25,518 bases of DNA from IMG/VR virus record IMGVR_UViG_3300047557_002025, positions 1 through 25,518 of that record; one strand, given 5' to 3'. The stretch comes from a virus. Of this stretch, positions 98 through 24,866 are shown piece by piece. Under the pieces are notes generated by a model. It saw only the letters and a list, made by a program, of their open reading frames with translations, had not been told where the DNA came from and searched no databases. Within the stretch, counting starts at the first letter, position 1, and the number at the start of each line of letters is the position of its first letter. A program made the translations under genes and the position numbers.

Positions 98-126
98 TTG
101 ACACCCACACCACTCTATACTATACT
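98..126 (+). promoter_or_regulatory. Sigma70-type promoter P1
   Basis: A perfect -35 box TTGACA (98-103) is separated by exactly 17 bp from TATACT (121-126). A second TATACT overlaps at 116-121. The match to the bacterial housekeeping promoter is close to ideal, so host RNA polymerase is the likely user. A degenerate hairpin-family copy (68-89) ends 8 bp upstream of the -35 box, and a long-stem inverted repeat begins 48 bp downstream of the -10 box. Confidence 0.75.
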
Positions 127-254: not shown

Positions 255-283
255 TTGACCCCCATCCTAGACTATACTATACT
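255..283 (+). promoter_or_regulatory. Sigma70-type promoter P2
   Basis: TTGACC (255-260), a 17-bp spacer and TATACT (278-283), with an overlapping TATACT at 273-278. The CTATACTATACT arrangement and the spacing are the same as in P1, 157 bp upstream, so the two look like repeated units. It faces the first coding block (start 444). Confidence 0.7.
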
Positions 284-443: not shown

Positions 444-716
444 ATGGCACAGATCACTTCAGCAGCCGAAGCGCAGGCAGCGTTGCGGGAGGCTCATTCC
501 GAGCTGACCACCGCGCAGGAAGCGCCCCGGCACCGCAGCCACTCCGATCAGGCGGCGAACATTTCCGTCGCCATCACCAAGGTACAGGAAGCGCTGTCCT
601 GGCTGGGAGCGGTGATGCATCTGGTGGACCACATCCGGCACCCGGACCAACCGGCGGATGCCCCCAGTGAGCCGCTTCACCCCGAGCACACCACCGAGCC
701 GGGGGCGCAGGCATGA
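444..716 (+). CDS. Small protein with Acb2/Tad1-like helical motif, copy 1
   Basis: A 90-residue protein. ATG 444 is chosen because AAGGAAG lies just upstream; an open frame extends to 255, but that would run through promoter P2. The core NISVAITKVQEALSWLGAV (about residues 36-54) matches the amphipathic SLAxTKLEEAxMWL pattern I associate with the Acb2/Tad1 hairpin family, phage proteins that sequester signalling nucleotides of CBASS and Thoeris defence. The next gene has the same core (AITKV-EA--WL), so the two are paralogues. The N-terminus is a polar, probably helical segment and the C-terminus is Pro/Glu/His-rich and probably disordered. It is first in the block read from P1/P2 and overlaps the next gene by ATGA. 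The family assignment is by eye from a short motif; it could be an unrelated helical protein. Confidence 0.6.
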   Translation: MAQITSAAEAQAALREAHSELTTAQEAPRHRSHSDQAANISVAITKVQEALSWLGAVMHLVDHIRHPDQPADAPSEPLHPEHTTEPGAQA

Positions 717-1054
717 GCCACGGATCGCCCACCGAGTATCCCAAGGACGTGCGGCCGCTATTCGGCAACGTGAACAGGAGCGAAGGCATCCGGGTGCGCT
801 CCATCGACGCTCTGCAAGGCGTCGTCATGGCACTACGCGACCGCGAGCCGTCGCGGGAGAACTCCCTCGCCATCACGAAGGTCGAGGAAGCGATGCACTG
901 GCTCCAGTCCGAAGCCGGAGTTACCCTGGAAGTAACTCCAGCCGCCGGCGTCGCCCACCCCAATACTGGACCGATCGGCGCCTGCATTCCTGCGACGGCA
1001 ACGGAAGCCGGCGCCTACGCTACTCCGCTGAAGGAGCCGCCTAGCGCGGCGTAA
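713..1054 (+). CDS. Small protein with Acb2/Tad1-like helical motif, copy 2
   Basis: A 113-residue protein starting at ATG 713 inside the previous stop (ATGA), so probably translationally coupled. RENSLAITKVEEAMHWL (about residues 48-64) is a good match to the conserved helix of Acb2/Tad1 proteins, where Glu/Asn-Ser-Leu-Ala precedes a Thr-Lys-Leu-Glu-Glu-Ala and an aromatic-Leu pair. A preceding helix (about residues 30-43) could form the helical hairpin. If the assignment holds, it would bind cyclic oligonucleotides or cyclic ADP-ribose isomers in the host cytoplasm and blunt abortive-infection defences. After the motif the frame crosses a dispersed hairpin (917-939) encoding GVT-LE-VTP; the C-terminal third is low-complexity and possibly dispensable. 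Alternative: a structural or regulatory helical protein of unknown role. Confidence 0.65.
   Translation: MSHGSPTEYPKDVRPLFGNVNRSEGIRVRSIDALQGVVMALRDREPSRENSLAITKVEEAMHWLQSEAGVTLEVTPAAGVAHPNTGPIGACIPATATEAGAYATPLKEPPSAA
917..939. repeat. Dispersed hairpin, copy 2 (inside the second sponge-like gene)
   Basis: Perfect 8-bp arms GGAGTTAC (917-924) and GTAACTCC (932-939) with loop cctggaa. It lies in frame in the coding sequence and reads GVT then EVTP-like residues. Confidence 0.85.
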
Positions 1055-1069: not shown

Positions 1070-1471
1070 ATTCCCCGCCAGCACACACAAGCGCGCTTCG
1101 ATCTTCTTTTGCCATCCGATGTGCTGGAGGAATTGCGGGCCATCGGCGCGGCGGAAGAGACGAACATCGCCGAGATCATCCGCCGCGTCGGCGACCTGAT
1201 CATTACCTTTGACATACCTCCAGCCAATGCGCCTATCCCGCCCATCTACGCGGGAGCCAATACCGAGCGCTTCACCTATTTCATTCCCAACCCCCAGCTC
1301 AGCCAGTTGACGGATGCGGCCGTGCGGCGCGGGCTGACGGTCCATGAGCTGTTGAGGCAGGGGCTTATCCTCTACTCGAAGAGGAAGCGCAAGGCGCTGC
1401 GGGAATGGACGATGCCGGCGGTGGAGGGGACTACGCTGACGGTGAACAACCATGGCGTGGTGACGGGGTGA
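1070..1471 (+). CDS. Tandem ribbon-helix-helix-like protein, probable ATT start
   Basis: The frame is open from 1055. The first standard start would be TTG 1109, but that removes the sequence ARFDLLLP, which looks like the beta-strand of a ribbon-helix-helix (RHH) domain. AGGAG (1057-1061) lies 8 bases before ATT 1070, so I propose ATT initiation and a 133-residue protein. The first RHH-like unit spans about residues 8-40 (strand RFDLLLP, helix, then TNIAEIIRR). A second unit spans about 66-108 (strand RFTYFIP, helix, then LTVHELLRQG) and is followed by a basic KRKRK stretch. Two units in one chain could form a pseudodimer that binds DNA. It lies between the sponge-like genes and the small terminase, so it may be an early regulator. 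The fold is inferred from pattern only. Confidence 0.6.
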   Translation: MPRQHTQARFDLLLPSDVLEELRAIGAAEETNIAEIIRRVGDLIITFDIPPANAPIPPIYAGANTERFTYFIPNPQLSQLTDAAVRRGLTVHELLRQGLILYSKRKRKALREWTMPAVEGTTLTVNNHGVVTG

Positions 1472-1477
1472 GGAGGC

Positions 1478-2206
1478 GTGGCTAAACTTCCTTCCTCTTC
1501 TTTGCCGGCCCCTATCCAGCCAGTTCGACAGCCCACGATCATCAGGCCGGACAATTATGCGGGGCCGGAGAAGGGGCGGGCGCATTCGCTGCTCAGTCCG
1601 TCGATAGGGCTGTTCATCGCCGAGATATGCTCCAATATGGAGCCGTTGGCGGTGGTGATGCGGCGGTACGGCATCAACAAACAGCAGTTTCGGGCGTTGC
1701 TGGCGCAGCCGGTGTTCCGGCAGGCAGTGTCGCAGCAGAGGCAGGTGTTTGCGAGCGCGGCCAATCTGCCGGATCGGATCAGGCTCAAGGCGCAGTTGGC
1801 GGTCGAGGACCTGATCCAGAACATGTACATGCTCGCGAGCGGGACTGCGCCGAACACACCGGCAGCGGCCCAGGTGGCTGCGTTCAATCAGATCAAGAAC
1901 CTGACGGGTCTGGAGAAGCCCGAGGCTCCGGCCCCGAAACAGAAGTTTGCGCTCACGATCAATGTTGCGCCTAGCAATGGTGGGTCGGGGGAAATCATTG
2001 AGGCCATACACGAGGAAGTGGATGTGGCGGAAGAGGTTGGGCAGGCGGCGTTGGCGGACGAGGATGCGCTGTCCGTCACCGTAGCCAATGGGGGGTGGAA
2101 CAGTGGGATAGCCCGCCCAGTGGGGGACATGCGGAACCCGCCGCCTGCGGTTGAGATCATCAATTCCGGGAAGTGGGGAGCGCGGCCCGGAGTTACTGCG
2201 GAGTAA
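1478..2206 (+). CDS. Terminase small subunit (probable)
   Basis: A 242-residue protein starting at GTG 1478, 6 bases after the previous stop, with AGGAGG at 1471-1476. That SD is unusually close, so the exact start is uncertain. The N-terminal half is helical, with a helix-turn-helix-like stretch (about residues 55-80, with RRYGINKQQFRALL), as expected for recognition of packaging DNA. The middle (about 96-150) has an amphipathic helix and the phrase QIKNLTGLEKPE, common at the end of the oligomerisation region in small terminases. The C-terminal tail is acidic and could contact the large subunit. The large terminase lies less than 1 kb downstream, which supports the call. The last residues GVTAE and the TAA stop are encoded by a dispersed hairpin (2189-2210). 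Confidence 0.65.
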   Translation: MAKLPSSSLPAPIQPVRQPTIIRPDNYAGPEKGRAHSLLSPSIGLFIAEICSNMEPLAVVMRRYGINKQQFRALLAQPVFRQAVSQQRQVFASAANLPDRIRLKAQLAVEDLIQNMYMLASGTAPNTPAAAQVAAFNQIKNLTGLEKPEAPAPKQKFALTINVAPSNGGSGEIIEAIHEEVDVAEEVGQAALADEDALSVTVANGGWNSGIARPVGDMRNPPPAVEIINSGKWGARPGVTAE

Positions 2207-2400: not shown

Positions 2401-2623
2401 AACTTTGGGGTTTTATGAGTTGATCTTTCATTATTTATCTTTTACCGGAGGAACCATCGTTACAGCGGCGGTGTGGCCGTGCGGGTTGTGCGACCAAATG
2501 ATTGACGGTATGGGCGGGCCAGGGGATGGAGAGATTTGCGAGAAGTGTGGTGAGGACTTGAAAGCCGGGCGGTTGCGCGGTACAATTAAGCGGGAGCCGG
2601 AGAAGAAGAATGCCGGAAGTTAA
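2384..2623 (+). CDS. Small zinc-ribbon protein
   Basis: A 79-residue protein from ATG 2384 with GGAG at a suitable distance; it overlaps the end of the previous gene. Two CxxC pairs (Cys33/Cys36 and Cys52/Cys55) form a plausible zinc ribbon, followed by a basic tail. The first 25 residues are hydrophobic, come from an AT-rich patch (2400-2445) and do not look like part of the ribbon. A strong GGAGGA (2447-2452) sits just before ATC 2456 and GTG 2471 in the same frame, so the real protein may be shorter and begin close to WPCGLC. The function is unknown; small phage zinc ribbons often bind nucleic acid or host proteins. Confidence 0.6.
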   Translation: MPIVPRTLGFYELIFHYLSFTGGTIVTAAVWPCGLCDQMIDGMGGPGDGEICEKCGEDLKAGRLRGTIKREPEKKNAGS

Positions 2624-2855
2624 CGAAATCCCCGAGGCATACGAATGGGAGCATGTCCATAAGAGCGGTGCCGTCGAAATGACGGAGCGTTTTAAAGTCC
2701 CTGGTGGGTGGCTTTACCGCACAATCGTATGTACGCAAGTCACAGGAATGCTTATGCACATGACATACGTTCCCGAGCCGGAAGTGCGGTATGTGGCTGC
2801 GCAGGTGGCTGAGCCCGTTCGCGTACTCAATCCGATCACTTCCCAAGTTACCTGA
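2610..2855 (+). CDS. Hypothetical small phage protein
   Basis: An 81-residue protein starting at ATG 2610 after GGAGAAGAAG, overlapping the previous gene by 14 bases. It contains FKVPGGWLYRTIV (about residues 28-40), a beta-rich phrase I have seen in small phage proteins of unknown function, and then a second beta-like stretch ending in VTYVPEP-like residues. No catalytic or metal-binding motif is visible. Its TGA stop lies in the loop of a dispersed hairpin (2844-2865). It is probably translated with its neighbours from the same message. Confidence 0.6.
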   Translation: MPEVNEIPEAYEWEHVHKSGAVEMTERFKVPGGWLYRTIVCTQVTGMLMHMTYVPEPEVRYVAAQVAEPVRVLNPITSQVT

Positions 2856-2865
2856 AAGTAACTCC
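2844..2865. repeat. Dispersed hairpin, copy 4
   Basis: AGTTAC (2846-2851) pairs with GTAACT (2858-2863); the outer two positions are mismatched. The TGA stop of the upstream gene is in the loop, and GAAAG (2854-2858) is the only SD-like sequence before GTG 2867. Confidence 0.65.
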
Positions 2866-2866
2866 A

Positions 2867-2968
2867 GTGGAATGCGAAGGGGCGCAAATAGTAATCAACT
2901 CCATAGCGATTGGACTGATCGCTGGTACGATTATTCATTTCGCTTGGGAGTGGTGGGTAAATAAGTAA
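2867..2968 (+). CDS. 33-residue single-span membrane protein
   Basis: A short frame GTG 2867 to TAA 2968. After a short polar N-terminus it encodes a hydrophobic stretch IVINSIAIGLIAGTIIHFAW (residues 8-27), then EWWVNK, a typical one-pass membrane segment with a Trp-rich, basic interface. The TAA overlaps the ATG of the large terminase by one base (TAATG), strong evidence that the frame is translated and coupled. It is too short for common gene finders. Function unknown; holin-like, superinfection or membrane-signalling roles are possible. It could also serve only as a leader that couples terminase translation. Confidence 0.55.
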   Translation: MECEGAQIVINSIAIGLIAGTIIHFAWEWWVNK

Positions 2969-4431
2969 TGCCCGCAGTCGAGGATATCTCCCTTAATTTC
3001 ACGCCAGTCCCGTCGCTGGCCAAAATGTTTCTTGCCACTACGGCGAACAAGTTTGTATTTGTTTTTGGTCCGGTCGGCAGCACCAAGACAACATCGTGCC
3101 TGATGTGGCTCATGATGCGGGCGGCTCGTCAGGCCCCGAGCCCTGATGGCATCAGGCGCACCCGCTTCGCGCTCGTGCGCAATACGCTGGTGGCGCTGAA
3201 GCAAACGGTTCTGAAAGATATCCTCAGTCTCTTTGCCGGGATGGTGGAGTGGCGACCATCTGAGAATGTCTGCCGCATCAAGGTGGCAGATATCGATACT
3301 GAGTGGATATTGATGGGGCTGGAAAGCCCGGAAGATCAGAAGCGGTTGCTATCTCTCCAGCTTAGCGGCGTATACATCAACGAAGTTAGAGAAATTCTTT
3401 ACCAGCTTATCTTTGCGGCATTTTCGCGGACTGGGCGTTTCCCCAACATGAAGCACGGCGGGGTGACATGCTCATACCGCTTCCTGCTGGCGGACAGCAA
3501 TATGGGAGTGGACGGGTCGCCGCTGCATCACTTTCTGGAAGTGGAGAAGCATCCGGCTGTGATGTACATTCACCAGCCGAGCGCGCTTAGCTCAGCAGCG
3601 GATTGGCTGCAATATTTACCTGAAGGATACTACCGTGATGCTCAGGTTGGACAAACGCGAGCGTGGATTGATACTCATATACACGCTAAATGGAGTGCAG
3701 ACCTTTCGGGGGAACCTATTTTTGCAGCCGTGTTCAATGAGTTTTTTCACGTCTCTCCTACGCCGTTACAGACCGTTCCAGGCTTACCAATCTTGGGAGG
3801 GGTCGACCCCGGTCTTAACCCTGCGTGCATTCTCGGGCAACTTACTGCGAGCGGTCAGCTTCGAGTGTATAAGGAGTTGTTCGCCGAAAACCAACTCTTC
3901 GGAGATTTTGTCGACAGTCAAATTATCCCAACATCACAGTTACCGGGATTTGCGGGTCGCGCGCACTTCTTCACGATGGACCCATCCGGCGTTAACCGCC
4001 ACGCGATTTCCGGGCTCAGCGCCAAAGGCTTCATGGACAGCCGCGGGTTTCAATGTGTCACTGCCGCTACGAATGATATCGATCCGCGTCTCAAGGCGAT
4101 TGAAAACTACCTCACGAAAATTATCTCGCCGGGTGGCGACTTCATGCTCAGCCTTGTCGACATCAAGCGCAAAGGACCGCAACCGGGGCTGCTCATCGAT
4201 CCTTCCTGTGAGAAGTTGATCGAAGCCCTGAACGGCAAATACCGATATAAGCGCAACCGCGCTGGAGAGCTGGAAGCTAAGCCCGAGAAGAAGCACCCAA
4301 TATCCGACGTGGTGGATGGGCTAGGGTATCTGGCGATGGGCATCAATACTGCGCCGTTCAAGAAGTTAGTTTCTTCGATCGGAGCGCCGCGACCAACGCA
4401 ACTTACTGTGGACAGGAGGGGGTGGACATGA
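2968..4431 (+). CDS. Terminase large subunit (packaging ATPase and nuclease)
   Basis: A 487-residue protein, normal length for the family. It drives ATP-dependent DNA packaging into the prohead and cuts the concatemer. The Walker A motif is GPVGSTKTT (residues 34-42). The Walker B-like motif is GVYINE (134-139), with Asn in place of the usual first Asp, which I believe occurs in this terminase subgroup; Glu139 would be catalytic. The C-terminal RNase H-like nuclease has acidic candidates in VDPGLNP (Asp280), MDPSG (Asp338) and SDVVDGLG (Asp447/Asp450). The start is set by TAATG overlap with the small membrane gene. It ends in an ATGA overlap with the next gene. The call is secure; the packaging type (cos, pac or terminal repeats) cannot be told from this. 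Confidence 0.93.
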   Translation: MPAVEDISLNFTPVPSLAKMFLATTANKFVFVFGPVGSTKTTSCLMWLMMRAARQAPSPDGIRRTRFALVRNTLVALKQTVLKDILSLFAGMVEWRPSENVCRIKVADIDTEWILMGLESPEDQKRLLSLQLSGVYINEVREILYQLIFAAFSRTGRFPNMKHGGVTCSYRFLLADSNMGVDGSPLHHFLEVEKHPAVMYIHQPSALSSAADWLQYLPEGYYRDAQVGQTRAWIDTHIHAKWSADLSGEPIFAAVFNEFFHVSPTPLQTVPGLPILGGVDPGLNPACILGQLTASGQLRVYKELFAENQLFGDFVDSQIIPTSQLPGFAGRAHFFTMDPSGVNRHAISGLSAKGFMDSRGFQCVTAATNDIDPRLKAIENYLTKIISPGGDFMLSLVDIKRKGPQPGLLIDPSCEKLIEALNGKYRYKRNRAGELEAKPEKKHPISDVVDGLGYLAMGINTAPFKKLVSSIGAPRPTQLTVDRRGWT

Positions 4432-5167: not shown

Positions 5168-5700
5168 GTGATCAACTTACTAAATTACTTGACGTAATGG
5201 ATCATTACGAGACCCTCCACGGTAAGCCACCGGCATATTTACGCTTGACCCAGGAAGAATATAAAAAATTTTTACTCGTTGCACAGCCCCTATTAATAGC
5301 AGCGGCAGCTTCGGACGGCTCCATCAGACTTCGTGGCGTACCAATCCTATGCGGAGATGAACCTGTGCCTACTCCCAAACCAGACATGATCAAGCACCCC
5401 CCACACTACAACTCGCACCCGTCTGGCGTGGAATGTCGGACGATCGTGCAGGAGTTTCCGTTCAACATCGGCACGGCCATAAAGCATTTATGGCGGGCCG
5501 GACTGAAGCCGGGCTCCCCTACATTGGTGGACTTGGAGAAAGCGAAGCAATATATCAATTTCGAGATCGAGCGGATCACCAAGCAACAGGACAAAGAACT
5601 GGCGCAAGCGGAACCGCCCCCTTTCCGGCGCGACCTGGGTATAGCGGGGGGTAGCGTCGAACCTGGGTTACTTGTAAGTAACTCTGAACATCGGACTTGA
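5164..5700 (+). CDS. DUF3310 protein (phage nucleotide-kinase-like family)
   Basis: A 178-residue protein, ATGA overlap with the lysin gene. The DUF3310 core is clear: HPPHYN (residues 78-83), FNIGTAIKHLWRAG (about 100-113) and DLEKAKQYI (123-131). This family includes T7 gp1.7, a nucleotide kinase; activity in this protein is an inference. The first 75 residues form an extra N-terminal region (helices and a short LRGVPI strand) not needed for the core. The last residues are encoded across a dispersed hairpin (5665-5684), and the TGA stop is part of the TTGACA box of promoter P3. It closes the first transcription block. Confidence 0.85.
   Translation: MSDQLTKLLDVMDHYETLHGKPPAYLRLTQEEYKKFLLVAQPLLIAAAASDGSIRLRGVPILCGDEPVPTPKPDMIKHPPHYNSHPSGVECRTIVQEFPFNIGTAIKHLWRAGLKPGSPTLVDLEKAKQYINFEIERITKQQDKELAQAEPPPFRRDLGIAGGSVEPGLLVSNSEHRT
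5665..5684. repeat. Dispersed hairpin, copy 5 (before promoter P3)
   Basis: GGGTTACTT (5665-5673) pairs with AAGTAACTC (5676-5684), nine pairs with one G-T. It lies in the 3' end of the DUF3310 gene and ends 12 bp before the P3 -35 box. Confidence 0.75.
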
Positions 5701-5770: not shown

Positions 5771-8770
5771 ATGGAGCAGGTCACTAGTTCAGACCTGAAG
5801 ATGCGGGGTTACGAGGCCCCGCGTGTTACCCGCATCTCGGCTGATCAAGTAGCTAATGTGGATGGGCCTGACGGCGGGCCTGTCTCCATTACTGTCCCCA
5901 ATCTTGTCTCGGAAGGCTCACGGTCCCTGCCCACGGGGACTGATCCACTTGGTTCCGCCAACCCTCTTTTGCCGGTAATTATCGGCCCCGCTGACAATCG
6001 GACTACAGCGCTCTACCCGATGGCCGATGTGGTCGCGGGGGCAGCATCGTTTTATCTTGGTCCAAAGACCGTCCCGCCTGTCACCGATAATCTAGGTAAG
6101 CCGCTGCAAGTCGGGATGACGTATTACAACGTCAACGACGAGACGCAGTATGTATGGACTTCTTCTGGTAAGTGGCGCGTGGGCGGGTCCGCGTTGCCAT
6201 CGGCAAATAAGATCTACGTCTATACTTTGTCGGTGCCGGCGGCACAAATCCCGCCCAATGGGCCGGGTACACCGGACAGTCACGGCAATGTCCTACGCTT
6301 CGATATTTCTGCTTCCGCTACCAGCGTTAACGCTGTTAGTGTGTACGCTAATGGCGTGCTGTTGGTTGGTGGGGCTGATTATATTGTCCACGAAGCCGGT
6401 GAGGCGGATTGGATCGAGTTGCTGGCGACGTGGTGCGCCGGGTCCAATCTTGTCGTGGTGGTCACGAATACGGCGTCTATTCTGTTTGCGCCAAATGCGG
6501 TTAAGATAAACACGACGTTTTGGTCTACGGGCGACGATGAGTTCGGCCCGATCAATGGCGTCAATACTGTGTTTCCTTTGCGGGATATGACTGGCAACTC
6601 GGTCAATCCAGTCAACGCCGTCAATTTGTTGGTATCGCTCAATAATCGTATCATTGAGCCTAATATCGAATATCAAGTTATCGGTGATACCATCGCCTTT
6701 GCTATTCCGTTGGAAATAGAGGACGAAGTATGGGTCACGGCGGGGGTACCTACCGCCGGCAATGATCTAAGTAATGTTTCGTCCACCCCATTTACGCCAC
6801 GCGAAATGGGCGCAGTCGGCGACAAAGTGGCGGACGATACTCGGGCGATAGTTAATAGCATTAATCGGATGCTGGAGACAGGACAACCGCTCAACCTCTC
6901 GAACGGGATATTCAGGATCACTGGCCCACTCCCGTTGATGAATAAAGCCAACATCAGTGGCGATGGTACGGGTGAGATTTACGTCGATTTTGACCCCGAA
7001 CAGTCCCCTATCCTCGATATCAATATTCCGTTGGTTGATACCTACGCAGTGGCAAGCATTGCCGTTGTAAACTTTGATTTTAATGGTGCGTATACTGCTG
7101 ACAGTGAGATGACCCGGATACAACTCACGCTGACTGGTGGGCAAGTGATGCCCGCTCCGGGAGATATCTGCAAAGTTACTTCCGATGATCAGTTAGTCGG
7201 AGTTGAAACCGGCGATCACACCGGGCAGCACGTCTACATTGCGGCGGTGTCGGGCTCCTACGTCTATATCCCGAACCTGCTGTATGACGCCTACACGACT
7301 AACATCCAGCTCCACAAACTGCGGCGTACTTCGGTCGTTCTGCGCGGCTTTCGTATGTCGGCCAACTGGACATCGCTGGTCGCCAACGATTGGATTTTTG
7401 AGTTTGTCAGAGTTACTGGCGCAGTAACTCCGACACTAGAGCGGTTCACCTGCTACGACGGCGTGCAGGGAGTTACTTTTGCCGGCACGTACAAGGGTAG
7501 CACCTTGGGTTTCCGTGCATACCACATGCGTAACGCGACGGCCAGCGAAAATCCGCCTGTACCGGGTTATGGCTTTGTCGACGCTGGCTCTTTTATGACG
7601 CAACACACAGACATCGGCGGGGACGATTGCCGCCATGCGTATACAACTGTTTCCCCTGATGCGGCTACTTGGGATCGTGTCGCATGGGGTCGTACAATTA
7701 AGCCTTCTCTTAATGGAGGTAAGTCTGTTGGTTGCAGTGCTGCTGCCTATGATACTCACTCGGACTGCCTCGAACCTAATTTCGCTAATCTTGATGTTTA
7801 CGGCGGTTATTTTGGAGAAAATAGTGCTGGTGCTGGTATTCAGTTTCGGGGCATTCGCGGTATTGCTAGTAGCTGTCGGGTGCGCGATTGTGCAGTTGGC
7901 TTTGAAATCTATAAGCAGTTTACTGGTGAAGCTGCTAGTCATTTGCTTGATAATTGCTATTACTCGGGTAAAGGTACGCCAATCAGGATCGACCGCGATC
8001 CAGGGCTGAGTTCAGTTAATGCCCGGCAGATGACGAGACTGCGGAATTTCTACGGTGAAACTTACGGCTTGATGGGCATTGATGCTTCCGACTGCGATAT
8101 GCTAGTTGAGGGTATCACCAGGATCGTTCACCAAGGATCGTTGGCTGGGGCGCGAGCCCTATTCATGCGGGCAGCAGCTACAGCGCGGTCTTACGGCGAC
8201 GGCCGTTTGGTTCATGTAATTTCCGGCATGACCGGCACACCAAACCCCAGGCTAATCACATTTAGCGGGCCAAACTGCGGTGCGGACGGGTTGTTCGCGT
8301 CGGTCCGCGCAGGGTCGGTGGCATGGCAAGCGGTGGTGAGCGAGGACGACCCGACCCCGGCGGTGGCTGGAGCTTTCAGGATCGATTGCGACTGCGACCT
8401 TGCCCCCGGTGCAGCGAGCGGTGGCTACAGCTTAAACGGCGGTTCAAACTTGTTGACCGCCGGGGCTCTACAACTGATCCTGACCGTCAACAGCGCGCGC
8501 ACGCCGGCGCAGCGAGTAGGGGCCTTCTCGCTGACGGCAGCGATGAACCGACAGATCATTCTGTGCAGCGGGACATGGACACTGACGGTTCCTAGCGCAG
8601 CGGTGCTCGGTCCAGACTTCAAGTGTGAAATCATCGTGACTAGCGGAACGGTGACGATCGATGGCCCTGGCGGTACCAATCTGCCGGTCGCCGCCAACAA
8701 TTCCGGCCGTGTATGGGTAGCCGGTTCCACGGTTTACGCTTCAAGCCAAGCACTGACGACGCTGACATGA
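5771..8770 (+). CDS. Tailspike with beta-helix (pectate-lyase-like) domain
   Basis: A 999-residue protein from ATG 5771 (GGGG upstream); nearby ATGs at 5732 and 5761 open only very short frames. Residues 1-330 are a beta-rich, Pro/Val/Asn-rich region, likely particle-binding and connector domains with repeated YTLSVPAAQIP/NGVLLVGGADY-like phrases. At about residues 340-360 the motif REMGAVGDKVADDTRAI marks the start of a right-handed beta-helix of the pectate-lyase type, the usual fold of tailspikes that bind or cut surface polysaccharide. The last 80 residues form a separate beta-rich tip. Between 7690 and 7985 the codons turn strongly T-ending, which hints at exchange of the receptor-facing part. 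A dispersed hairpin (7410-7430) lies in frame. Enzyme specificity cannot be judged. Confidence 0.85.
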   Translation: MEQVTSSDLKMRGYEAPRVTRISADQVANVDGPDGGPVSITVPNLVSEGSRSLPTGTDPLGSANPLLPVIIGPADNRTTALYPMADVVAGAASFYLGPKTVPPVTDNLGKPLQVGMTYYNVNDETQYVWTSSGKWRVGGSALPSANKIYVYTLSVPAAQIPPNGPGTPDSHGNVLRFDISASATSVNAVSVYANGVLLVGGADYIVHEAGEADWIELLATWCAGSNLVVVVTNTASILFAPNAVKINTTFWSTGDDEFGPINGVNTVFPLRDMTGNSVNPVNAVNLLVSLNNRIIEPNIEYQVIGDTIAFAIPLEIEDEVWVTAGVPTAGNDLSNVSSTPFTPREMGAVGDKVADDTRAIVNSINRMLETGQPLNLSNGIFRITGPLPLMNKANISGDGTGEIYVDFDPEQSPILDINIPLVDTYAVASIAVVNFDFNGAYTADSEMTRIQLTLTGGQVMPAPGDICKVTSDDQLVGVETGDHTGQHVYIAAVSGSYVYIPNLLYDAYTTNIQLHKLRRTSVVLRGFRMSANWTSLVANDWIFEFVRVTGAVTPTLERFTCYDGVQGVTFAGTYKGSTLGFRAYHMRNATASENPPVPGYGFVDAGSFMTQHTDIGGDDCRHAYTTVSPDAATWDRVAWGRTIKPSLNGGKSVGCSAAAYDTHSDCLEPNFANLDVYGGYFGENSAGAGIQFRGIRGIASSCRVRDCAVGFEIYKQFTGEAASHLLDNCYYSGKGTPIRIDRDPGLSSVNARQMTRLRNFYGETYGLMGIDASDCDMLVEGITRIVHQGSLAGARALFMRAAATARSYGDGRLVHVISGMTGTPNPRLITFSGPNCGADGLFASVRAGSVAWQAVVSEDDPTPAVAGAFRIDCDCDLAPGAASGGYSLNGGSNLLTAGALQLILTVNSARTPAQRVGAFSLTAAMNRQIILCSGTWTLTVPSAAVLGPDFKCEIIVTSGTVTIDGPGGTNLPVAANNSGRVWVAGSTVYASSQALTTLT
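7410..7430. repeat. Dispersed hairpin, copy 6 (inside tailspike)
   Basis: GAGTTACTG (7410-7418) pairs perfectly with CAGTAACTC (7422-7430) around a 3-base loop. It encodes RVTGAVTP-like residues in the beta-helix. A lone left arm (about 7469-7478) lies 40 bases further on. Confidence 0.8.
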
Positions 8771-8790
8771 AGTTACTTCTAGGTAACTCT
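8769..8790. repeat. Dispersed hairpin, copy 7 (tailspike / fibre junction)
   Basis: AGTTAC (8771-8776) pairs with GTAACT (8783-8788), loop ttctag. The left edge overlaps the tailspike TGA stop (8768-8770). The next gene starts 15 bases downstream and has its own GGGG. Confidence 0.75.
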
Positions 8791-12889: not shown

Positions 12890-12910
12890 AGTTACTTCGT
12901 AGGTAACTCT
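12888..12910. repeat. Dispersed hairpin, copy 9 (after Calx-beta gene)
   Basis: AGTTAC (12890-12895) pairs with GTAACT (12903-12908); T-G and T-A can extend the stem inward. The left edge overlaps the TAA stop (12887-12889). GGAGAG just downstream serves as SD for ATG 12921. Confidence 0.75.
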
Positions 12911-14481: not shown

Positions 14482-14733
14482 ATGAGAACAGCATGGGTCA
14501 TCGTTGCAATATTTGTTATTATCGTGTGGGTAGCAGCTTGGCTTAGCTTGCGCACATCGGTAGAGGACAATACTAGAGACATAGGCGATGTGCGGGATGA
14601 CGTTAAGTCTCTCGAACGTAAGATGGAAAGGTTAGATACTACGGTGTGGTCTATTATTCGAGAAAATGATAGGCAAAGTCATATATTGGATAAGTGGATG
14701 CCGCCTGTGGAACGCGGAGTTACTGCTAAGTAA
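14482..14733 (+). CDS. Small membrane-anchored coiled-coil protein
   Basis: An 83-residue protein, ATG 14482 immediately after the previous TGA, probably coupled. Residues 4-22 (AWVIVAIFVIIVWVAAWLS) form one clear transmembrane helix. A charged coiled coil follows (about 25-60) with SVEDNTRDIGDVRDDVKSL, similar in style to the SVEDIRHDVDSL of the preceding protein. The topology (short cytoplasmic start, one span, helical outer part) fits an i-spanin-like protein or other lysis accessory. No lipobox-bearing outer partner is seen nearby, so the function stays open. The last residues GVTAK and the TAA stop come from a dispersed hairpin (14716-14737). Confidence 0.6.
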   Translation: MRTAWVIVAIFVIIVWVAAWLSLRTSVEDNTRDIGDVRDDVKSLERKMERLDTTVWSIIRENDRQSHILDKWMPPVERGVTAK

Positions 14734-14737
14734 CTCC
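14716..14737. repeat. Dispersed hairpin, copy 10 (near-consensus)
   Basis: Perfect 9-bp arms GGAGTTACT (14716-14724) and AGTAACTCC (14729-14737) with loop gcta. The right arm holds the TAA stop (14731-14733) of the membrane coiled-coil gene. It lies 41 bp upstream of the P4 -35 box. Confidence 0.88.
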
Positions 14738-14846: not shown

Positions 14847-14868
14847 AAAGTTACTTACCCGTAACTCC
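14847..14868. repeat. Dispersed hairpin, copy 11 (P4 leader)
   Basis: AGTTAC (14849-14854) pairs with GTAACT (14861-14866), loop ttaccc; the outer two positions are mismatched. It is the only copy that lies wholly in an untranslated leader downstream of a promoter. Confidence 0.7.
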
Positions 14869-16151: not shown

Positions 16152-16441
16152 ATTACTCGGAAGCCCTGCACCACGTCAAGTTTGGTGCCTTAATGGCCCG
16201 GCATGGCTGGAACGGCAAGAACATGGGAATATTTCTAGTGCCGGGTTCCGAGTTCGAGATCAATCGAGAACCGTGGCTAACGATTTTCCCACCGGGCACC
16301 AAGATTAAGTACCGTGCCCATATCGATTTGATCGCGGCTGACGGCACAGTCGGCCCGTGGACCCCATCCAGCACTGACCAGCTCGCAGATGATTGGTACG
16401 TGGCAACACGTCCGCCAGTCTCTGGAGTTACTTCGGAGTAA
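16148..16441 (+). CDS. tad2: Tad2-family (DUF2829) anti-Thoeris protein
   Basis: A 97-residue protein, full length for the family, start in an ATGA overlap. It carries the family signatures in order: ARHGWNGKNMGIFLVPG (residues 17-33), then REPWLTIFPPGTKIKYRAHID (about 40-60, aromatic-rich), ADGTVGPW (64-71) and TDQLADDW (76-83). Characterised Tad2 proteins bind the signalling molecule 1''-3' glycocyclic ADP-ribose made by Thoeris, and related members bind cyclic dinucleotides of CBASS, so the effector is not triggered. Activity here is inferred from homology. It is unusual in lying inside the head-assembly block directly before portal. The last residues GVTSE and the TAA stop come from a dispersed hairpin that also provides the portal SD. 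Confidence 0.88.
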   Translation: MNYSEALHHVKFGALMARHGWNGKNMGIFLVPGSEFEINREPWLTIFPPGTKIKYRAHIDLIAADGTVGPWTPSSTDQLADDWYVATRPPVSGVTSE

Positions 16442-16445
16442 CTCT
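16424..16445. repeat. Dispersed hairpin, copy 12 (Tad2 / portal junction)
   Basis: GGAGTTACT (16424-16432) pairs with AGTAACTCT (16437-16445), one outer G-T, loop tcgg. The TAA stop of Tad2 (16439-16441) is in the right arm, and GGAG (16435-16438) in the loop/arm is the SD for portal ATG 16448. Confidence 0.85.
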
Positions 16446-16447
16446 GA

Positions 16448-18562
16448 ATGCTGTCTGCGACTGTTCAAGCCTTCCAAGAAGAAGCCAACGTCGGCGGTGA
16501 TCCCACACCGCAGGCGCAGGCTTTACAGACGTACATCACTCGGCAGCTACAGGAGATGCAGCGGTTCCGCACCCACATCGGGGTAGTGGATCGGCTCAAC
16601 ACTTGCCTGCGATTGCGTGAAGGTCAATATGACGCAGCGCAGCTCCAGGCCATTCTCAACTTCGGCGGTTCGTCGGTGTTCGCGAGGCTCGCGACGAACA
16701 AAATTCGTGGCGCGGCGGCGATGCTACGGTCGATCTTCGTGCAGGGAGATCGGCCATGGGAAATTCGCCCGACCCCTATCCCTTCTTTGCCGGAAGAGAT
16801 AGGGGCCGATATTCAAACGTTGGTCGGCTCCGAAGCACGTACCATGGCCGAAGCGGGGCAGCCGCCGGATGCCGGTATGCTTCAGCAGCGTATGAGCCAG
16901 TTGCAGCAGGCAGCGCTTGACGTAGCCCGCAAACAGGCCAAGACCGATGCCCACCAAGCTACTCTGTACGTTGACGATATTCTTACCGAAGGAGATTTTT
17001 ACGAAGAGTTGGACAATTTCATCCTCGATTTCTGCACCTATCCCTTTGCTGTTCTTGCTGGCCCCACCGCCGTCATGGAAACAGGCGTCGACTATGTTAA
17101 CGGTAAACCCACCAGGGTCCGTAAAGCCAAACTGAAGTTCCGGCGGGTTGACCCATACTACATCATGTGGTCGCCTGGAGCATCGTCGTTTGAGAACGCC
17201 GATATTCTCGAACGGATGCCTATGAACCGAGCGCAACTTACTGCGTTGATTGGGCTGGAAGGGTACGACGAAAAAGCGATCCGTTCCGTTATCAGGGATT
17301 ACGGGCAGCAAGGTTTCAGTTACCGCGAGTTCTATGAGCAGGTTCACGAGGACGCCACTGGGCAAAACTCGCAGTTTTACAACACGCTGATTGATGTATT
17401 GGCGTTCACTGGCAAAGTATCCGGCGACCAATTGCAGGAGTTTGGCATTCGTACAACGGATGAAAATGAGATCATCCATAAGGATATGGAGTATCAAGTT
17501 CAAGCATGGATGTGCGGCCAGTACATCCTCAAGGCGCAGGTTGACCCCGATCCGGTTAACCGCCCAAGCTACTATTCTGCATCCTACGAACCTGTCCCTG
17601 GCAGTATTGTCGGCACTGCTCTACTGGAGTTGATCGCCGATGTGCTGGAAGTCTACAACGCAGTGCTGCGCGCGTTGGTCAACAATGTCGCGTTTGCCAG
17701 CGGTCCAATGGTGGGGGTCAATACTTCACGTTGGCAGGCTCCTGCTGACGGCAGGGTAAGGATCGAGCCATGGATGATTTGGCGGTACGACACCGATCCG
17801 ACAGCGCCATCGGGCGAAAAGCCAGTGGAGTTTTGGCAGCCGCAGCTCAATGCGCAAGAGTTGATGGCTGTGCTCTCGTTTCTCCAGAACATGGCGGACG
17901 AGATCAGCGGCATTCCTCGCTACTTGACGGGATCGGACAAGATTGGGGGGGCGGGTCGTACCTCGTCGGGCCTATCGATGCTGATGGGCAATGCAACCCG
18001 AACAATGACCTCAGTAGCTGGTGGTATCGACAGGTACGTTCTAGAGCCATTGCTGCGGAAAACGTATGATTTGATTTTGCTCACTACGGGAACGGATGTA
18101 CTGCGCGGTGACGAAGAGATTGCTCCGCGCGGTGCTACCTATGCGGAGCAGCGTGAGCAAGATCGGGCGCGGATGGTGGAGTTCCTCAATTCGACCATGA
18201 ACCCAGTCGACCTGCAAATCATGGGCATTCCGGGCCGTGGTGCAATTCTGCGCAAAGTCTCGGAGAGCTTCATGGGGGATGATGAAGTTGTCCCGGATAT
18301 GCAGGCACTCCAGCAGATGCAGCAGCAACAGCAGCTCCAGCAGATGCAGCAGGCTGCCGGTGGTGGGCAACCGGGCCAGGAGTTACCGGGAAGTAACTCC
18401 GCTGGTGGTGGGCCGCAGGGAGCGCAACCGTCGCAATCGCAAGGCAATGGTGGTACACCACCAAAGCCGGGGCCGGGCGAACGGCCGGGCAGCGCCACCG
18501 ATAATGCGTTTCGCGCGCGGTCGCCTGGAACTATTCAGCGCCAGACGCGGCGGGCCGCGTGA
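16448..18562 (+). CDS. Portal protein
   Basis: A 704-residue protein, ATG 16448, 9 bases after GGAG. Size, position after the packaging genes and before scaffold and capsid, and helical/beta composition fit the large portal of podovirus-type phages. Recognisable phrases include LATNKIRGAAAML (about 80-92), the FRRVDPYYIMWSPGASS segment (about 234-250) and the helical stem/crown region with GIPRYLTGSDKIGGAGRTSSGLSML split around residues 490-515. It forms the dodecameric DNA gate at one vertex and docks the terminase. The C-terminal 90 residues are Gln-rich (MQQQQQ) then Gly/Pro/Gln-rich and disordered, and contain an in-frame dispersed hairpin (18379-18400). The assignment is by pattern and context, without a search. 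Confidence 0.85.
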   Translation: MLSATVQAFQEEANVGGDPTPQAQALQTYITRQLQEMQRFRTHIGVVDRLNTCLRLREGQYDAAQLQAILNFGGSSVFARLATNKIRGAAAMLRSIFVQGDRPWEIRPTPIPSLPEEIGADIQTLVGSEARTMAEAGQPPDAGMLQQRMSQLQQAALDVARKQAKTDAHQATLYVDDILTEGDFYEELDNFILDFCTYPFAVLAGPTAVMETGVDYVNGKPTRVRKAKLKFRRVDPYYIMWSPGASSFENADILERMPMNRAQLTALIGLEGYDEKAIRSVIRDYGQQGFSYREFYEQVHEDATGQNSQFYNTLIDVLAFTGKVSGDQLQEFGIRTTDENEIIHKDMEYQVQAWMCGQYILKAQVDPDPVNRPSYYSASYEPVPGSIVGTALLELIADVLEVYNAVLRALVNNVAFASGPMVGVNTSRWQAPADGRVRIEPWMIWRYDTDPTAPSGEKPVEFWQPQLNAQELMAVLSFLQNMADEISGIPRYLTGSDKIGGAGRTSSGLSMLMGNATRTMTSVAGGIDRYVLEPLLRKTYDLILLTTGTDVLRGDEEIAPRGATYAEQREQDRARMVEFLNSTMNPVDLQIMGIPGRGAILRKVSESFMGDDEVVPDMQALQQMQQQQQLQQMQQAAGGGQPGQELPGSNSAGGGPQGAQPSQSQGNGGTPPKPGPGERPGSATDNAFRARSPGTIQRQTRRAA
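18379..18400. repeat. Dispersed hairpin, copy 13 (portal C-terminal tail)
   Basis: Perfect arms GGAGTTAC (18379-18386) and GTAACTCC (18393-18400), loop cgggaa. It is in frame, encoding ELPGSNS in the disordered tail, in a different reading phase from the GVT-type copies. Confidence 0.87.
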
Positions 18563-19927: not shown

Positions 19928-19945
19928 GTTACTTCTGAGTAACTT
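19926..19945. repeat. Dispersed hairpin, copy 14 (scaffold / capsid junction)
   Basis: GAGTTACT (19926-19933) pairs with AGTAACTT (19938-19945), one G-T, loop tctg. The left edge overlaps the scaffold TGA (19925-19927). The capsid ATG is 24 bases downstream. Confidence 0.8.
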
Positions 19946-21047: not shown

Positions 21048-21530
21048 ATGGTCAAGCGGCTAAAAGATGCAAGCGGTTTCGTCTACGGATGGAACCACGA
21101 GATGGCGAAGAACCCGGACCTCACCGAGTTCGATGACGAAGATGAAAATGCTCAATTCGAGCCTACCGCCAAGACGCCGGACGTGCGCGGACAACAGCCC
21201 CCCGTCATGATGCCTACCATCGTCGGCGATCTGCCGCAGGATCAGGCAGCCCGCGAGGCCGCAGCAGTGGCGTTGGCCACGTCTGCGGCAACGGAGGGAC
21301 AAGCTGCTTTGGATGATGGAGTTACCCCCGAAGTAACTCCGGCGGACGAGGATGCTGGCTACATCATGGTGGACGAGAACGGCGACCCCATTCTCGACGC
21401 CAATGGCAACGAAATTCCATCCGACGCCGATGGTAACCCCCTCGATCCCAACTACCCCCGCGCGTCTGACGTTCCGGTGGAGGAAGAAGTCGTACCCGAG
21501 GCTCCAGCCTCTAAGAAGGGGCGGAAGTAA
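21048..21530 (+). CDS. Acidic protein downstream of capsid (possible head decoration or completion)
   Basis: A 160-residue protein, ATG 21048 after GGTGAAGG. It begins with MVKRLKDASGFVYGWNHEMAKNP, a start-of-protein phrase I have seen in small phage proteins following capsid genes, and then becomes highly acidic and probably disordered. An in-frame dispersed hairpin encodes GVTPEVTP. The middle has repeated Asp/Asn/Gly calcium-loop-like phrases (DENGDPILDANGNEIPSDADGNP split around residues 107-129), and the C-terminus is basic. It may be a virion or assembly protein, but the family is not recognised. Confidence 0.6.
   Translation: MVKRLKDASGFVYGWNHEMAKNPDLTEFDDEDENAQFEPTAKTPDVRGQQPPVMMPTIVGDLPQDQAAREAAAVALATSAATEGQAALDDGVTPEVTPADEDAGYIMVDENGDPILDANGNEIPSDADGNPLDPNYPRASDVPVEEEVVPEAPASKKGRK
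21318..21340. repeat. Dispersed hairpin, copy 15 (acidic gene after capsid)
   Basis: Perfect arms GGAGTTAC (21318-21325) and GTAACTCC (21333-21340), loop ccccgaa. It is in frame, encoding GVTPEVTP, nearly the same peptide as copy 2. Confidence 0.87.
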
Positions 21531-22954: not shown

Positions 22955-23514
22955 GCGGCATTGCTCCTTATGTCTTTTTGGAGTTACTTGGCGGTAACTT
23001 GGTGGCGCTCGGACCCAGCGTCATTCAGTACATATACGATGGCAGTACGCATCTAGTAATTCCGATCGTTGGCACTGACTTCTTTCAGGCCGGCTGCATG
23101 GCCGCCGTGCCACAAGCGGTGGGGTCGCAGCACCCTATCAACTCCTACAACACAAGCTATCCTTATTGCCGCACCGCAGTCACGTACCGGATGGACGACC
23201 CGAGACGTGATCCTCAACTTGGGCAATTCGTGGTCGCGGCTCCTTTCTTGTCAATCAAGGTTCTTCTTGCCGGTTGCGACCGGGGGCTACCTATCAGCGT
23301 AAGCTACCACGGTGTACAGCCTTCAGTGTCTAACTGCGCGGTTGGAGTATATCCAGGGTTTGATCCAACTGAGTTCTACATTCAGGTGGAACGGGCTAGG
23401 GTTACTTTACCGGCAAGGATAAACTTTACGATCACCAACGGCACGCGAAGCAAAGCGTTCTGGATTGGACTGCGGGATAGGCGTGATGGTACGCCGTCAG
23501 GGGCAGTGATATGA
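22951..23514 (+). CDS. Hypothetical virion protein with in-frame hairpin near its start
   Basis: A 187-residue protein, ATGA overlap with the previous gene. It is beta-rich with several Cys (about residues 49, 73, 89, 107, 126) and repeated strand phrases (FLSIKVLLAGC, LPISVSYHGVQ). A dispersed hairpin (22981-23000) lies near the 5' end and encodes ELLGGNL. No enzyme or family signature is seen. It lies directly upstream of the collar-type fibre and may be a tail or fibre-attachment protein. Confidence 0.5.
   Translation: MSGIAPYVFLELLGGNLVALGPSVIQYIYDGSTHLVIPIVGTDFFQAGCMAAVPQAVGSQHPINSYNTSYPYCRTAVTYRMDDPRRDPQLGQFVVAAPFLSIKVLLAGCDRGLPISVSYHGVQPSVSNCAVGVYPGFDPTEFYIQVERARVTLPARINFTITNGTRSKAFWIGLRDRRDGTPSGAVI
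22981..23000. repeat. Dispersed hairpin, copy 16
   Basis: GAGTTAC (22981-22987) pairs with GTAACTT (22994-23000), outer G-T, loop ttggcg. It is in frame, in the start region of the gene. Confidence 0.75.
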
Positions 23515-24848: not shown

Positions 24849-24866
24849 GTTACTTGGAAGTAACTC
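24847..24866. repeat. Dispersed hairpin, copy 17
   Basis: GAGTTACTT (24847-24855) pairs perfectly with AAGTAACTC (24858-24866). The upstream TGA (24846-24848) overlaps the left arm, and GGAAG (24856-24860) is the only SD-like site before GTG 24868. Confidence 0.82.

Follow-up and report, generated by a model that had tools for sequence, protein, structure and literature searches.

The window, the whole stretch of DNA analyzed here (IMGVR_UViG_3300047557_002025, a 25,518-base virus record of the linear class, possibly a fragment), carries two small overlapping genes, P0001 and P0002. Judged from its sequence, P0002 is a member of the Acb2/Tad1 hairpin superfamily in reduced form, and P0001 is probably its diverged tandem paralogue. 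We give an even chance to P0002 being a nucleotide-signal sponge.

Organization of the locus

The main features of the region are the following:
98..126, plus strand: promoter-like site P1, TTGACA-17-TATACT, 11/12 consensus matches, called from the consensus match alone
255..283, plus strand: promoter-like site P2, TTGACC-17-TATACT, 10/12 consensus matches
444..716, plus strand: P0001, 90 aa, diverged Acb2/Tad1-hairpin-like (PF24729 at 17.7 bits, AlphaFold, alignment)
713..1054, plus strand: P0002, 113 aa, Acb2/Tad1 hairpin protein (PF24729 at 28.4 bits, AlphaFold, hhalign)
917..939 (core 920-936), no strand assigned: palindrome copy GGAGTTAC-N7-GTAACTCC, in frame directly after the P0002 hairpin, encoding GVTLEVTP
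1109..1471, plus strand: weakly RHH/CopG-like gene (PF01402, E 0.012; PHROG Arc-like repressor, E 0.095; coding score)
1478..2206, plus strand: presumed terminase small subunit (position before TerL; phrog_36773, a function-unknown family)
2968..4431, plus strand: terminase large subunit, TerL (phrog_2, E 6.9e-10; tblastn to annotated TerL genes)

The 3' end of P0001 and the start of P0002 overlap by 4 bp, as ATGA. Scored against the window's other genes, codon use in the stated frames was positive for P0001 (+0.13 bits per codon) and P0002 (+0.17) and negative in their other forward frames; one antisense frame opposite P0002 was weakly positive (+0.05), and the remaining shifted or antisense frames were rejected. 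Both genes look coding.

The sequence-only reading had placed P1 and P2 ahead of the pair, and both sites do match the promoter consensus; 0.5 such sites were expected, and the two have a 49-nt stretch in common at 71%. The early expression suggested from this placement found no support: we could recognise no replication block in the 25.5-kb contig, and the pair runs into the RHH-like gene, the presumed small terminase and TerL. Upstream, the RHH-like frame stays open as far as about 1070 and contains no ATG, GTG or TTG start there. The whole open frame (1070-1471) has a good coding score; a start at the TTG at 1109 would truncate a conserved strand, and the ATT at 1070 is a possible start.

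The window portal is SU10-like. By portal and terminase, the nearest relatives with a name belong to the Rhizobium phages, for example RHph_TM3_14A (39% and 34% identity); Pseudomonas phage Rollin is related through both genes too, and its terminase is likewise close. A TerL search of viral contigs recovered no sibling phages. Searched with PF24729, neither 16 portal-related records (many of them short fragments) nor RHph_TM3_14A gave a match; in Rollin, a gene for a PF24729 protein precedes the terminase. This Acb2-like Rollin protein (OR577172.1, 1455-1745 of locus L050; 63.9 bits) is annotated as a NAD/FAD-utilizing enzyme.

Sequence evidence for hairpin kinship

The motif AITKV-[EQ]EA--WL had been reported in a helix of both genes. 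We recovered it as S[VL]AITKV[QE]EAxxWL in P0001 and P0002, within a predicted helix in both AlphaFold models, and neither protein had any Pfam match other than PF24729 (Acb2/Tad1 hairpin), even with the threshold relaxed to E<=10. The two genes are the only PF24729 places in the 25.5-kb record, and the pair matched nothing in PADLOC or NCBIfam. P0002 scored above the curated cut-off of 27 bits and P0001 below it (E 0.0042); this cut-off is strict, as the Tad1-like proteins of L001, L002 and L004 also fall slightly under it. A family profile built without either protein gave 43.8 bits for P0002 and 24.2 bits for P0001, compared to a best score of 11.0 bits among 20,000 shuffles (10,000 per protein). 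The motif was part of the pattern used to collect most members of this profile, which is therefore biased to it; PF24729 is free of this bias and so provides an independent test of kinship. HMM-HMM comparison, proposed earlier as a check, was carried out with hhalign against a family alignment lacking both queries (the hairpin-only family in the case of P0002) and returned 96.6% for P0002 and 89.5% for P0001. In addition, a profile of the hairpin-only relatives together with P0002 and P0001 matched solved Tad1 chains in the PDB (E 1.8e-7) and the 76-aa 'Acb2 homolog 43' (9ptq, E 3e-5), which was also matched by the profile of the RFxHHPPKGD group alone.

The kinship proposed for both genes is thus upheld for P0002 and likely for P0001, which lies below the Pfam cut-off and well above the shuffles. 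That P0001 is unrelated, its AITKVQEALSWL helix resembling that of P0002 through chance or convergence, appears improbable, and would be compatible with P0002 acting as a sponge or as a regulatory module. P0001 indeed falls under the Pfam cut-off, with no match by tblastn against phages, among viral contigs, or by Foldseek with its model at E<=10; however, its only Pfam match is to the same family as P0002, BLASTP aligns the two proteins at E=3e-5, and its family-profile score is more than that of any shuffle.

Predicted structures

AlphaFold models were made from 13 sequences, and a helical hairpin is predicted for both proteins: helices at residues 19-42 and 48-69 with a low-confidence tail in P0002 (mean pLDDT of at least 90 across residues 31-60), and at 7-25 and 32-65 in P0001. 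The pTM was low (0.42 for P0002 and 0.40 for P0001). A structure search of the PDB with the hairpin model gave no match at E<=0.001. With VIA-align, T4 Acb2 (Z 5.8, 66 residues, 4.0 A) and CmTad1 (Z 5.2, 46 residues, 1.5 A, 28% identity) ranked among unrelated hairpins, and several of the top 22 rows from a viral structure library were named 'Acb2/Tad1 hairpin domain-containing', all at E>0.1. Since a two-helix hairpin is structurally generic, fold searches cannot decide membership.

Modules kept and lost in P0002

P0002 keeps the helix seen in Tad1-type proteins, S-R-E-N / A-I-T-K / E-E-A / W, with the core SREN-x-x-AITKVEEAxxWL; helix 2 opens with the [SC]-R-E-N motif (S47-R48-E49-N50). Its second helix thereby resembles that of Tad1 (PDB 7uav, 8kbb-8kbh), SREN-x-x-A-[IL]-T-x-V-E-E-A-x-x-W. 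In contrast to Tad1, P0002 lacks the beta domain, the invariant Phe of S-F-Q and the RGVEGT tail, and in P0001 the REN is missing too. CbTad1 reportedly makes contacts through F82 and N92. The N-terminal beta domain is absent from both proteins: AlphaFold predicted no strands, and 18 residues in P0002 and six in P0001 precede the first helix, in contrast to A6. The pocket-lining C-terminal R..RGVEGT tail, whose R-G-V-E-G is invariant in A6, is likewise absent from both.

Like Acb2 (T4 Vs.4, PDB 7uq2; p26, PDB 8h2j), P0002 is a small protein with a predicted all-helical hairpin, and it resembles the A-x-T-K-x-x-E-A-x-x-W of the T4 protein. It differs in that the T4 F82 position is not conserved, and neither Y8 nor F82 of T4 is clearly present. 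In neither P0002 nor P0001 did we detect the Acb2 N-terminal YRxLSxxE...IK segment, whose Tyr (T4 Y8) belongs to the dinucleotide site. A profile built from 123 sequences, almost all of Acb2 type, matched the whole length of T4 Acb2 (E 1.5e-10) and P0002 at residues 41-65 only. By eye, Y9-x10-V20-N21 of P0002 can be set against Y8-x10-V19-N20 of T4, with Glu replacing Lys; the 123-sequence profile gives no support to this Tyr, and we rejected it. In T4 Acb2, F82 stacks against the ligand, and Y8A reportedly disrupts dinucleotide binding and abolishes the activation of Panoptes by Acb2 (PMC12657218).

Scans turned up relatives of four layouts:
Layout 1: Tad1-like proteins (L001-L004 and others), with a beta-domain-like N-terminus, REN and the RGVEGT tail
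Layout 2: small RFxHHPPKGD...SRExALTKVEEAxFWANAxIARN proteins, matched in 325 phage records at a single place per record
Layout 3: short SRERxLAITKVQEA proteins (L016, L018, L019), with an EPTADNLKL tail
Layout 4: Acb2-type YRxLSxxEKxxMxxIK proteins, whose joint profile is the one matching full-length T4 Acb2

P0002 is closest to layout 3, yet its SREN is common with Tad1. The protein of L016 and a gene of Tenacibaculum phage Gundel_1 (H87) have the same short N-terminus, SRE[RN]xLAITKV[EQ]EA and no beta domain; they differ from P0002 in a conserved NPYPxSYxP...EPTADNLKL tail, which P0002 lacks, and in being single genes. The new branch suggested previously holds in so far as P0002 does not match Acb2 or Tad1 over their full length; hairpin-only relatives, however, are common and already within Pfam.

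Two further observations concern these relatives. The Acb2-type proteins of L054 (2501-2653) and L137-L194 carry the YRxLS...IK segment plus SREISLAKTKVEEAVMWAVKHIT, and by sequence connect T4 Acb2 to the SRE/TKVEEA group; in L190-L192 and L194, E-K replaces T-K in the SREISLAKTKVEEAVMWAVKHIT helix. In L018 (IMGVR_UViG_3300013099_000021, 2476-3153), a single ORF encodes both a RyR domain (PF02026, 36.7 bits) and an Acb2/Tad1 hairpin (26.4 bits). Because phage RyR proteins bind or degrade cADPR signals (PMC13232231), this ORF could be a two-domain anti-Thoeris/anti-CBASS protein.

P0001 and the tandem arrangement

In the alignment, A37-A38-N39-I40 of P0001 stands at the position of the P0002 SREN. 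P0001 keeps the predicted hairpin and the ITKVxEAxxW face; the SRE motif, found in almost every sequence compared, is gone, which argues against P0001 as a second ordinary sponge. We then counted loci with any hairpin match over 11,498 six-frame ORFs: 174 of 175 have a single hairpin protein and the window is the sole locus with two, some loci being re-fetched from one contig and flanks being short. In each of 22 whole viral records we also observed one hairpin protein. These counts mark the tandem pair as unusual and P0001 as its odd member. P0001 would modify P0002, in a mixed oligomer, or be decaying; an independent sponge would be less likely. The earlier suggestion that the two copies cover different signal molecules exceeds what the evidence supports.

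P0001 might instead be an obligate partner, forming with P0002 a mixed hexamer with an asymmetric channel or pockets for a signal that neither protein binds alone. The 4-bp overlap, the tandem order, the common interface motif, the loss of SRE and the only two-copy locus of the 175 all favour such a partnership, but our literature search gave no mixed Acb2/Tad1 oligomer and the resemblance of P0001 to P0002 and the family is weak beyond about 15 residues; we consider it quite improbable. A two-gene sponge in which a mixed core-helix hexamer captures a nucleotide, cyclic tri- or other, that neither Acb2 nor Tad1 takes would be a long shot. We know of no earlier two-gene sponge of the Acb2/Tad1 superfamily.

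A dispersed palindrome

The palindrome GGAGTTAC-N6/7-GTAACTCC has 15 exact-core copies in the window, compared to 0.07 expected from shuffles, at the following positions:
920-936, 2192-2207, 2847-2862, 5667-5682, 7412-7428
8772-8787, 12891-12907, 14719-14734, 14850-14865, 16427-16442
18382-18397, 19928-19943, 21321-21337, 22983-22998, 24849-24864

The copies lie mainly at gene ends, and some are in frame within C-terminal tails (P0002, the portal and 21048-21530). RHph_TM3_14A has 28 copies of GTTAC-N7/8-GTAAC across 60.9 kb, with none for the reversed control, and Rollin has no copy. The repeat is a candidate conserved genome-wide operator or repeat, and the RHH-like protein is a candidate for its binder. 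The copy at the start of the P0002 tail may account for this tail matching nothing.

Proposed function

As a sponge, P0002 would oligomerise via its hairpin and sequester a nucleotide second messenger of host defence without degrading it, a mechanism described for Acb2 and Tad1 (PMC12043709). The likeliest ligand class would be a cyclic trinucleotide, held in the central trimer channel. We infer a trinucleotide rather than a dinucleotide or gcADPR because the core helix common to Acb2 and Tad1 is all that P0002 retains, and because in both families trinucleotides occupy a trimer-interface channel separate from the dinucleotide/gcADPR pockets (PMC12043709). The modules missing from P0002, or not detected in it, are the Acb2 Tyr/Lys segment, which is the dinucleotide site, and the Tad1 beta domain and tail, which form the gcADPR/dinucleotide pocket. 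That these known binding features are absent or undetected argues against a sponge.

The same absence of both known ligand-binding add-ons would fit a hairpin that serves as an oligomerisation or regulatory module only, P0001 and P0002 acting in the packaging or transcription block with no signal bound, as would a gene order that leads straight into the RHH-like gene, the presumed small terminase and TerL. We regard this as unlikely, though the least so of the alternatives: conservation is focused on SRE/ITK/EEA/W, positions that match the solved sponges, and true Tad1-like and Acb2-like genes elsewhere also lie just upstream of phage terminases. A counter-defence role would be in line with P0002 as a sponge.

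Acb2 and Tad1 have one helix pair in common and bind different signals through parts added around it. From a bare-core protein beside a copy without the core's most conserved motif one could learn what the naked hairpin binds, and the pair would reveal whether two different subunits can build a sponge. If P0002 binds nothing, the PF24729 domain name alone should not imply counter-defence.
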